Assembly (NCBI GenBank): GCA_014803985.1
Contig: JAAVAO010000051.1
Location: forward strand, 1 to 64,000
Direction: 5' to 3'
DNA: 64,000 nt
DNA from: Treponema sp.
GTDB taxonomy: Bacteria > Spirochaetota > Spirochaetia > Treponematales > Treponemataceae
This document shows, one piece after another, positions 93 through 55,046 of the stretch (position 1 is its first letter; each line of letters starts with the position of its first letter). The notes below the pieces were generated by a model. That model did no database searches and was not told the origin of the DNA. It was given only the letters and a program-made list of their open reading frames with translations. The translations under genes were made by a program, and so were the position numbers.

Positions 93-3000
93 ATGACGAA
101 AACTAAAAAATCAATTTCATTCAGACAAAAAGCACTTTTCATTCCACTAATGCTTGTCACCGCAATCCTCTGCTCGTGCACGGACACGCTCCCTGAAAAA
201 GAGCAGGAATCTGTGATTGGGGGGGGGGGTACGGTCAATTTGAAAATTCCGAAGGCGGCACTCTAACCGTCTCCGCCCGCGTCTCGAACGGCTCGCCGCG
301 ACATGCGATGCCTTCGATGCCTGCACTCGTCTACGCCGCTCTTCTTTATAAGGACGGCGAAATCCCTGCAACTCCCGAATCAAACTTTGTTCAAGGAACA
401 GCAACGGAAGACGGCAAGCTAATTTTTTCATTCCAAAGACCAGACGATACGAGCGGAACATTCACGCTTGAAATATGTGCGTTCGTAAAAACGGAGGGCG
501 AATCGGAAGATGACACGATGCAGTTTTCAAGGGAAACTGCGCTGCTTTCAGGAAACAAAACGGGGCTTTCGATAGTTGGCGACACAATTGAAATAAGCGA
601 AGCAATCCCGCTTTCGTCCGACAAGCCCGGCACTGTAAGTTTGAAAATAAAAGTGCCCGATGAGTGTTCGCTTGAAATCGACGACACAGCGAATTTTGAT
701 TGCAAAAAAGATGATCTCTCTTCTGATACGTACACGATTGTAGAAAAAGACGGCGCGAGCGGAATTGCTACAGGCGCATACCAAGTGACTTTCACCGTGA
801 AGAAAGACGATGAAATCGTCCACATTTTTTCCGAATACATAAATGTCATCAATGGACTTTGCACCGACACTTGGTGGAATGGCGAAAAATCCAGTGAGGT
901 GAAAGATGTCGCGAACAGCATCGCGAAAACAGTGTACGTGCGCGGCACGGGCGGCTATTACGACACGAACTCGCCTTACAATCAAGACGGAAATGCCATG
1001 GCGGACGATGAACATACGGGAAGCTTCCTCTCGCCGCTCGCCTCAATTCAAAAGGCAATCGACAAAATCATCGCCATAAACGACGGCACGAGCGCATACA
1101 CAATTTGTGTTGATGGAACGCTCACCGCTACGGACACCACATACATCGGCATGAACGGCATGGCGGACTTCTCCGCGCTCGCCAAGAACCTCACGCTCAC
1201 GATAAAGACACTTTCCGGCACGGCAACGCTTGACGGCGGCGCACGATTCACTATAAAAGATGATGGCACTGTAACTGTAGACAATGCGGGCATCGGAAAG
1301 CGCGTCATACACGCAAAGCCCGAAAGCGGCAAACTCAACCTCACGCTTGAAAACCTCGTTATCACGGGCGGAAACGCCAGCGACAATGGCGGCGGCATTT
1401 ATTTCAGTTCGACGGACGGCTTGGGCTCGCTCACGATGAACGGCGGCGAAATCAGCGGGAACAAGGCGGCTGCCGGTGGCGGCGTGTATGACGATAGCGG
1501 CAAATTCACGATGACTGCCGGCACAATCGGCGGAAACACTGCGACTGGCTACGGCGGGGGAATTTATTTTACGGCATCAAACACACTCAAAATCAGCAGC
1601 AGCGCGACAATCAGTGGAAACAAAGCGAAAGACGGCGGCGAAATCAGCGGAAACACCGCAACTGGCACCGGCGGAGGAATTTATTCAAATTCGGGAGGCT
1701 ATGTCGAAATTAGCGGCGGCACAATCAGCGGAAATAAGGCGACTAGCTACGGTGGCGGAATTTATAATTGGTCGGCATACGGGGTTAAAATCAGTGGCGA
1801 TGCGATAATCAAAAAGAACACGACAGGCAGCAATGGCGGCGGCATCTTTATAAATAGCGGCTCGCTCGATGTGAAAGGCGGAGAAATCAGCGGAAATGTC
1901 GCGAACAGCGGTGGTGGAGGAATTTATTTCAGCTCGACGTCACACTCGTTCGAAATCAGCGGCGGCACGATTGGCGGCGCGTCCGATTCCGACAAGAACA
2001 CAGCGAAAAACGGCGGCGGCGTGTATGTTTATGCCAAGAACCCCAAAATGAGCGGCGGAGCAATCAGCGGAAACACCGCGAGCGAAAATGGTGGTGGCGT
2101 TTATGTTAATGTCACTGGCACGTTCACGATGAAAGATGGCACAATCAGCGGCAACACTGCCAACGGCAACGATGCAAAGAAAGGTGGCGGCGGAGTGTAT
2201 GTTGTTAGCGGCGCTTTTGCGATGAGCGACGGCACAATCAACGGTAACACAGCCACAAACGGTAACGGTGCGTACCTCGCTGCCAAGGGAAAATTGAATA
2301 TGAGCGGTGCGGCGCAATTCGCGGAAAGCGACGACGTTTATCTTTATGCCAATGGCTCGGACATTCCCACAATCACCGTCGCGGGCGCGCTCACTGCTTC
2401 AAGCCAGGTCGCCACGATAACGCCTTCCGCTTACACGGCGGGCAGGCAGGTTTTGAGCGCGGGCACGGACATGACGATAGACGATACCGTCTGCGGCAAG
2501 TTCGCAGTGTCGCAGAAAGGATGGGAAATCGCGCCCAATGATGACGGCACGGCGGGCGTGTTGGGAATATCGATTTACCTGAATTCCTCAAGCGGCGATG
2601 ACGCAAATTCGGGACTGACCGCAAGCAAAGCGGTGAAAACGCTTACAAAGGCAATCGAACTTTTTGAATCACAAAGCGCGCAAAAAATCATGGTTTGCGC
2701 GGAGTACACTCTCCCGAGCGAAGAAAGCACTTTGCTCGACCGCGCGGGTAAAGAACATTTGACGCTTATGCGCTACATCGGTAAAAGCGACGTTTCGGGT
2801 GCATTCCGTGGAAAATTGCTTACCATTTCTCAAGGAAACGTTACAATCACGAACGTCACGCTCGACGGAACGATAATCGGTTACGCTACTGACGAGCTCT
2901 TGTCTATCTCTGGTTCAGGCACGGAAGTAACGCTCGGAGATGACGCAATTATATGTAACAATTCCTATAGCGGCGTTTGTGTTTCTTCTTATAATGGCAA

Positions 3001-3541
3001 ATTCAAGATGACAGGCGGAGCAATCACTGGAAACAGAACCAGTTTTGGTGGAGGTGGTGTAGAGATTTCCTATGGCACATTCGAGATGAGCGGCGGTATT
3101 ATAAGCGGAAACAGCGGCGGCTACGGTGGCGGAGTTGATATTGGTGGTGCCAAAAGTGGGTGTAAATTCACGATGAGCGGCGGCGAAATCTCTGGCAACC
3201 GCGCCAAGCGTGGGGCAGGGGTTAATGTTTCTAAAGGTTTGTACACCGGTACATTCGAAATGAGCGGTGGCACAATCAGCGAAAACCAATCCTATGGCAC
3301 TGGTGATGACGCAGGTGGCGGCGGAGTGTATGTCTCAGGTAAATTCACAATGAGCGGTGGTGAAATCACGGGCAACACCGCGACTACAAGTGGCGGCGGT
3401 GTGTATGTCGATAATAGCGGCACGTTCACCATGGAAGGCGGCAAAATCATGGACAATACTGCGACATCGAAAGGTAACGGCGTTTATAAAGCAGAAAATG
3501 CAACGTTCACGCACACCGGCGGCACAGTGCAAGAGGATTAG
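93..3541 (+). CDS. Large beta-helix repeat lipoprotein, interrupted by a poly-G frameshift (predicted phase-variable, OFF)
   Basis: The ATG at 93 follows GGAGA and opens a lipoprotein signal ending around ILCSC. The frame enters an 11-G tract at 219-229 and stops at about 266. From 230 a second frame is open without a stop to 3541, so nine or twelve G would give one protein of about 1149 aa. Past the tract, two modules each begin with a short globular part (residues about 265 and 810 of the joined protein). Each is followed by many imperfect 20-25-residue repeats built on GGxISGNTAxxGGGVY and FTMSGG, typical of right-handed parallel beta-helix surface proteins. No autotransporter barrel or LPXTG signal is visible, so anchoring would be by lipid. 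The gene looks more GC-rich than its neighbours. Function is unknown; a sequencing error in the homopolymer cannot be excluded. Confidence 0.75.
219..229 (+). repeat. Homopolymeric G11 tract, slipped-strand phase-variation site
   Basis: Eleven consecutive G lie inside the reading frame just after the lipobox. One added G or two lost G joins the signal peptide to the 1077-codon downstream frame, which is open right up to the tract. Poly-G tracts of this length are known contingency switches in Treponema. Confidence 0.75.
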
Positions 3542-3694: not shown

Positions 3695-4345
3695 ATGAAT
3701 GGTCTAAATATAAACGGGATGAAGTTTTTTTTACTTGTTTTTGTTGTGTTTTTTTTCAGTTCGTGTGGTGTTCAAATTTCTTTAAAATCATCAGATGTTG
3801 GCGCAGAATTTAATCTTTCCATAGACATGGGAAACGCATTTCTAGAAACGATTTCCGGCGCATTGGGGATTGAAAACGGTTCTGTTTTTGCTCTTTTTGA
3901 TACTGAAGAGTTAAGAAGTGTGCTTTCTGGAGCGGATTTTTATGATGTTTCTGTGCAATTTGAAAGTGAAAGAAAAATGAGAATCAGTGGAAAATTTGAT
4001 TGGAATTCTAATAATCCGCTTGTCCTTTCAAAAATTGTAAATCCCTTGCAAAATAGAGCTGCCCTGCTAATTTTTTCAGCGGAAAATTTGCAAACCTTGT
4101 ATGCGCTTTTGCCTCGTGACTTTAAAAATTATTTGGATATGTTTATGGCTCCTTCGTTTACGGGTGAAGAAATGAATGATGACGAATATATGGATTTGCT
4201 TGCATCTGTATATGGAGATGGGCTTATCGAAGAGTTAAAATCCGCTATGATTACAGTGACTATGCTAAACGGTGGAGCGCAGCCAACAGAAAAAAACATA
4301 CCTCTTTTAAAGATATTGAACATATCTGGGGAGTTGCGGATGTGA
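3695..4345 (+). CDS. Small spirochaetal lipoprotein of unknown function
   Basis: The protein has about 216 residues. An N-terminal hydrophobic stretch, FFLLVFVVFFFSSCG, ends in a lipobox Cys, so a lipid-anchored periplasmic protein is expected. The rest is soluble, acidic and has no motif I recognise. The start is uncertain. ATG 3695 lies exactly 7 nt after TATACT (3682-3687), which would make the mRNA leaderless. ATG 3719, directly before the hydrophobic stretch, is the alternative, and neither has a good Shine-Dalgarno sequence. The gene converges with gltB. Confidence 0.7.
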   Translation: MNGLNINGMKFFLLVFVVFFFSSCGVQISLKSSDVGAEFNLSIDMGNAFLETISGALGIENGSVFALFDTEELRSVLSGADFYDVSVQFESERKMRISGKFDWNSNNPLVLSKIVNPLQNRAALLIFSAENLQTLYALLPRDFKNYLDMFMAPSFTGEEMNDDEYMDLLASVYGDGLIEELKSAMITVTMLNGGAQPTEKNIPLLKILNISGELRM

Positions 4346-54858: not shown

Positions 54859-55046
54859 CTTACCCTTCAATTTTATATCATTAGTTCTCAAAATACAACT
54901 AGGCGTTTTCATTTTTAATGACGAGCGAATCATCAGATGCGTTTTTTATGCGCGTGGCGTTCTATCGGAAGTTTCATACAATTTCTTCGCAAAGTCTGTA
55001 TATTTGTGATGACAAGAAAGACGTGCATCAACATATAAAACAAAAT

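Follow-up and report, generated by a model that had tools for sequence, protein, structure and literature searches.

The closest described systems come from Campylobacter and from Treponema pallidum. According to an excerpt of one Campylobacter study, 53% of its poly-G/C tracts have 9 repeats and 26% have 10 repeats, and for a subset of genes switching by tracts of at least 8 has been demonstrated (PMC6321876). In Treponema pallidum, an excerpted account describes poly-G of varying length at the tpr genes, tp0126, and tprL, and places the tp0126 tract between the -35 and -10 elements, where a spacing of 17 works best (PMC7864442). Phase-variable type I restriction-modification is named in the excerpted text of a 2025 review, which also poses as a major question why many-locus phase-variable genomes seem restricted to pathogens, or whether this only reflects database bias (PMC11868660).

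The tract described here lies in a window of 64,000 nucleotides, the whole stretch of DNA that was analysed, which forms the start of the 183-kb contig C40 of a Treponema genome (G000; 2.56 Mb in 56 contigs, 90% complete). All features given below for the window are on the forward strand. A GGAG at 84-87, likely a ribosome-binding site judging from the sequence and common in position to the paralogs in an alignment, stands 5 bases 5' of the ATG at 93, which opens a frame of 57 codons and a stop (93-266) that translates as MTKTKKSISFRQKALFIPLMLVTAILCSCTDTLPEKEQESVIGGGGTVNLKIPKAAL. This product, the one expected at the present tract length, begins with a signal peptide with a hydrophobic core and a lipobox cysteine, features read by eye in the window gene and its paralogs alike, with lipidation predicted. 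The residues L-C-S-C at 168-179, with the acceptor cysteine at 177-179, are the lipobox by the usual lipobox rule, and the paralogs have LCSC as well, or LFSC in one copy. A short linker leads from the lipobox to eleven G at 219-229 (G11), which are followed by TA (230-231) and separate this export-signal frame from the body frame of a large, predicted surface protein. The signal-peptide frame stops at 264-266, 35-37 bases beyond the tract, whereas the body frame (230-3541, protein P0001) runs from 230 to its stop at 3539-3541 as 1,103 codons without a stop, for which the chance at local base composition is about 7e-24; at 11 G the two frames are not joined. Reading the sequence thus confirmed what the original prediction had said of the 11-G run, of the stop about 37 bases past it, and of a second frame open from 230 to 3541, and its frame arithmetic, by which 9 or 12 G restore one frame of about 1149 codons, is correct. 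The tract is the only run of seven or more G or C within the window. The next gene 3' (3695-4345) is lipoprotein-like, with a signal peptide ending FFFSSCG, and has no poly-G.

We estimate at about 0.88 the probability that G11 is a translational contingency locus that joins and parts the lipoprotein signal-peptide frame and the repeat-protein frame, within a phasome of about 80 loci, and so very probably a switch that goes on and off at random. Slipped-strand mispairing would change the number of G, and this number would decide whether the signal-peptide frame is joined to the large repeat-protein frame, about 1,150 codons in all. The joined product would be a large repeat protein lipid-anchored on the cell surface, and at 11 G only a 57-residue lipopeptide would be expected (OFF). 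We infer the slippage step and the switching in a living population from the kind of sequence, and the surface display and the role of the protein are likewise predictions. Because the tract sits at the same place in a seven-copy family, cells would differ in the sets of proteins shown, and with about 80 tracts each cell might have its own surface and defence state. The switch itself is of an already known kind. It differs in position from the T. pallidum tracts, which in the excerpted account act in promoters, whereas the window tract lies inside an open frame just behind the lipobox (PMC7864442); the window tract is therefore not of the T. pallidum promoter type, which other tracts of this genome fit.

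Searching the whole genome on both strands gave 81 runs of at least 9 G and only six of exactly 8 G. In 677,543 bp, made up of the window and of stretches chosen around tracts, there were 48 runs of 6 G, 4 of 7, 2 of 8, 41 of 9, 33 of 10, 5 of 11, 1 of 12, and 1 of 20, against 0.57 runs of exactly 9 G predicted by base composition in the same DNA. These counts rule out a chance run, and homopolymer tracts of mutable length in such excess over chance are what is expected of SSR-mediated contingency loci. The tracts also resemble the Campylobacter phasome, as excerpted, in comprising dozens of poly-G whose lengths are chiefly 9 (here 41 of 81) and 10 (33 of 81), in having G mostly on the coding strand, and in lying at surface genes, although the bacterium here is a spirochaete (PMC6321876). 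The single G20 run is at C44:34073; the other 80 tracts have 9-12 G.

The same counts bear on whether the number of G is an assembly or sequencing error in a normal, always-on lipoprotein gene. The contig begins 218 bases 5' of the tract, within sequence that a paralog also has, and its first 119 bases are identical to the start of contig C10, so the assembly broke in a repeat there. A homopolymer beside a contig end, inside a repeat common to C10, could have been assembled with a wrong G number, and isolated Ns strewn over several of the paralogs hint that copies were collapsed. However, a single miscount cannot yield 81 runs of at least 9 G with almost none of 7 or 8, half of the coding tracts (17 of 34) are out of frame, and the same site is out of frame in another species: the ortholog in the sister genome G084 (E 1e-117) has G9 at this site, then TACGG, with its frames unjoined. 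An error of this kind is accordingly very unlikely to be the explanation.

A rule that asks for an ATG frame of at least 40 nt upstream and an open frame of at least 300 nt downstream classes 34 of the 81 tracts as coding, and in these the two frames are joined in 17 cases and out of frame in the other 17, although C7:67159, C12:83579, and others among the out-of-frame cases may be two-gene junctions rather than one split gene. At C4:59674, the tract splits one Acyl_transf_3 domain, with model positions 3-146 in the upstream half and 152-324 in the downstream half. Around 9 of the 47 non-coding tracts there is a perfect TTGACA with a downstream -10-like box, at spacers of 19 to 21, and a looser promoter rule picked out 11 of the 47 non-coding tracts, 6 of the 34 coding ones, and 2.9% of 20,000 random positions. 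At least 9 tracts here thus lie between -35 and -10, as in the excerpted account of T. pallidum tp0126 (PMC7864442). These coding and promoter tracts, the window tract among them, occupy positions where a change of length would alter expression, through the frame or through the promoter.

A further reading holds that RNA polymerase or the ribosome slips on the G-run, so that the 11-G gene would give a steady, low full-length output, a matter of level and not of on and off. Long homopolymers can cause transcriptional slippage, and this reading fits every sequence observation; however, it needs no differences in tract length among copies, yet such differences exist, and the coding tracts are half in and half out of frame. 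We consider it unlikely, if the most plausible of the rival readings.

The body protein was used to search its own genome, and six further copies were found, on C40 (at 140807), C23, C1, C10, C3, and C47. All seven copies, including the window gene, have poly-G (G9-G11) at the matching site, although one copy is decayed. Homology of the other copies starts no more than 12 bases from a poly-G end, the signal peptides are similar among the paralogs, and tract lengths are G9 in C40:140807, G10 in C23, C1, and C10, G11 in C3, and G9 in C47, the decayed copy, which has a TAA inside. Of the six non-decayed copies, only that on C10 has its frames joined at the tract, and the other five (the window gene, C40:140807, C23, C1, and C3) have them unjoined. 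A distant copy on C14, with 39% identity, has G9 at another place and in frame. In addition, the C3 and C40:140807 paralogs carry a second poly-G inside the body, G9 at 3360 and G10 at 143650, respectively, where alignments across the site place GGGTA of the window gene (2746-2750).

With five of six copies unjoined at the tract and the seventh, on C47, truly decayed, the window gene might be taken for a decaying pseudogene that lost its frame once and for good. We rejected this reading and regard it as highly improbable in view of the 1,103 codons without a stop and of the substitution pattern in the N-terminal domain. The dN/dS of this domain is 0.27-0.46 over 15 pairs of six sequences, a set that excluded C3 and C47, and it is about 0.3 also where both members of a pair are unjoined. 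By this sequence measure the unjoined body frames are under purifying selection, so in the course of evolution the body must have been translated.

Seven copies of which one is joined also raise the thought that the unjoined paralogs are silent donors of gene conversion for an expressed C10 copy, with poly-G serving mainly to keep the donors silent, and the 5' regions of the window gene and C10 are indeed 98.6% identical over 210 bases. Cassettes that serve as silent donors generally have no signal peptide or start region of their own, but here every copy has both, and most tract genes elsewhere belong to different Pfam families and not to one family. This makes the donor role distinctly unlikely. 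The original prediction of phase variation is well supported by the family-wide tract site, the 81 genomic tracts, the balance of in-frame and out-of-frame tracts, and the purifying selection, all of which are consistent with a contingency locus.

The body comprises an N-terminal domain (residues 1-232; 230-925), which is conserved in the paralogs and in G084 and forms a strand sandwich in the model, a first repeat region of GGGIY...SGN repeats (residues about 360-780; 1307-2569), which forms a right-handed beta-helix in the model, and a second repeat region (residues about 880-1103; 2867-3538). The AlphaFold model, built from six sequences, has a mean pLDDT of 68.7; it is rich in strands in its N-terminal part and shows long repeats of strands. 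In VIA-align, the repeats matched PL6 lyases (Z 17.8-19.6), the Fap2 adhesin (Z 15.2), and antigen 43 (Z 14.9), with rmsd for these beta-helix matches poor overall at 25-40, and the top row for the body model was a phage Sf6 complex (Z 20.9). Neither Foldseek of the body model against the PDB nor a Pfam search of P0001 returned a hit at E <= 0.001, and a search for relatives with the body protein in genome_contigs was likewise empty. The C14 paralog (39% identity) has a Pfam Chlam_PMP repeat and NosD. The beta-helix body that had been predicted at the outset is supported by the VIA-align scores of Z 15-20 to beta-helix proteins and not by Foldseek, and a right-handed beta-helix in the body repeats is likely on the strength of the model, but not proven.

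Where a gene was assigned to a tract of this genome, its product may be a lipoprotein, an enzyme of surface polysaccharides, an Ig-repeat protein, a type I HsdS, or, by way of the promoter, Cas12a, a gene content typical of phasomes. Pfam gave a match at E <= 0.001 for 42 of 56 proteins at or near tracts. Among those at or adjoining tracts are LicD (two), glycosyltransferase families 2 and 4, Caps_synth, polysaccharide pyruvyl transferase, hexapeptide transferase, Ig-repeat giants, alpha-amylases, two-component proteins, an OMP beta-barrel, and HsdS. The HsdS on C21 (L127:2420-4189, forward strand) has poly-G inside its coding frame, which likens it to the phase-variable type I systems named in the excerpted review, but differs in carrying two tracts, G9 (C21:35119) and G10 (C21:35655), in one frame of 590 codons (PMC11868660). 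In the HsdS of G084 the corresponding runs are G8 and G9, and at C21:35655 the change in G number relative to G084 is offset by the upstream flank at equal total length, so not every difference in G number is a frame switch. On C12 (L113), duplicates about 2.2 kb apart and 92% alike over 133 bp have G12 and G6 at the same place, and these are a record of tract growth or shrinkage. Isolated Ns are densely clustered in the assembly, several of them in repeated or paralogous genes (C3 992-3468, C4, C5, C14, C23, C25, and others), and such clusters are perhaps collapsed copies or mixed strains.

One of the promoter tracts stands before a gene of adaptive immunity. At C21:28518 on the reverse strand, G9 lies between TTGACA and TATAAT with a spacer of 19, 142 bp 5' of a frame of 1,376 codons (L126:2761-6888, reverse strand). 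This frame matches Cas12a (PADLOC E = 0, 1,811 bits; Pfam RuvC_1 2.8e-68 and REC1 1.2e-30). Three copies of a CRISPR-like repeat, 61-62 bp apart, lie beyond the gene, and the repeat resembles known Cas12a repeats. Cas12a would then be phase-variable, as its promoter sequence suggests, and, if this is true, poly-G in the spacer of the Cas12a promoter would turn adaptive defence against phages into a form of bet-hedging. The literature searched gave no phrase match for phase-variable CRISPR; among the matches listed for Cas12a together with phase variation, none by its title concerned such a switch, and the same was true, by title, of literature joining CRISPR-Cas, phase-variable, and homopolymeric tract.

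Across 59 genomes searched, including the present one with its 81 tracts, 35 congeners had 0 to 27, so that this genome, which belongs to another lineage than T. pallidum, has far more tracts than most congeners. At least one GGGGGGGGGTA site occurs in 154 of 196 genomes of the genus, with dozens in some. The nearest named relatives of one phasome gene are in T. porcinum ATCC BAA-908 (65% identity) and in Treponema MAGs, many of them ruminant (52-64%), which points to a gut-type Treponema. Judged by titles among the matches listed, the literature searched reported no poly-G phasome in gut Treponema. The question of restriction to pathogens, as excerpted from the 2025 review, becomes testable in gut treponemes given the relatives in T. 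porcinum, cattle, and other ruminants and the 154 of 196 genomes with GGGGGGGGGTA, and gut treponemes are therefore a place to test whether rich phasomes are limited to pathogens (PMC11868660).

Three things are surprising: how large the phasome is for a gut-type Treponema, the poly-G in the Cas12a promoter, and, most of all, the two letters at the right edge of the tracts. The tracts of this genome are followed by TA in 65 of 81 cases, by T in 71 of 81, and by A in none. In control runs of the same DNA, G4 is followed by A in 39% and by T in 24%, G5 by A in 39% and by T in 22%, and G6 by A in 42% and by T in 17%; TA follows 8% of G6 runs and, after G4 and G5, does not rank among the eight most frequent pairs. 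Five congeners picked for many tracts show the bias in varying degree: G111 has TA after 55 of its 64 runs, G061 after 27 of 36, G185 after 26 of 47, G021 after 17 of 27, and G084 after 33 of 53; in G084, T is the next base in 44 of 50 runs away from contig ends. The bias is lacking in four genomes of another family of the same order, in which TA follows 8 of 38 runs and A follows 16 of 38, these runs being all 16 of G045, 12 of 14 in G053, 8 kept of 10 taken from 85 in G039, and 2 of 93 in G056. A property of all G-runs is rejected by these four genomes together with the G4, G5, and G6 controls. Coding tracts, here those with an ATG frame of at least 50 nt upstream and at least 300 nt downstream, have the edge in 25 of 31 cases, much like the remaining tracts, which have it in 40 of 50. 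An amino-acid effect is rejected on this ground, and an explanation by the -10 box only would leave the coding tracts unexplained. Nor is TA a target-site duplication, as the upstream sequence ends in AAT, ATA, GGA, and others, mostly not TA.

We know of no earlier description of a TA edge of poly-G tracts. The TA may be a birth mark of the tract, may be kept by selection, or may modify the rate of slippage. A tentative and rather improbable proposal is that poly-G tracts in this Treponema genus are not just selected chance runs and that a lineage-specific process or constraint makes or keeps G9-10 with the right edge fixed at TA and the left edge free, and so seeds switches in frames and promoters genome-wide, including that of Cas12a, whose CRISPR immunity would go on and off at random. 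The fixed TA edge is a concrete clue, open to counting, to the birth of tracts.

At comparable sites the right edge tends to stay and the left varies, for example between the window family and G084, and the left flank likewise differs between G9 of the HsdS at C21:35119 and G8 of G084. In the G12/G6 duplicates of C12, both flanks are nearly identical. A counter-example is found on C16 (L120, around the G9 at 54870), where tandem copies of about 100 bp have GGGAGG, G8, G5, and G9 with right edges TG, CA, TG, and TA. For an alpha-amylase tract, the homologs were too distant to allow comparison with an empty site. An amine oxidase gene (C49:17323) reads GAGGGGGGGGGTAAA at its tract; 14 orthologs are without four codons there, and at that site several of the orthologs have GGTAAA or GGAAAA and others have no GG.
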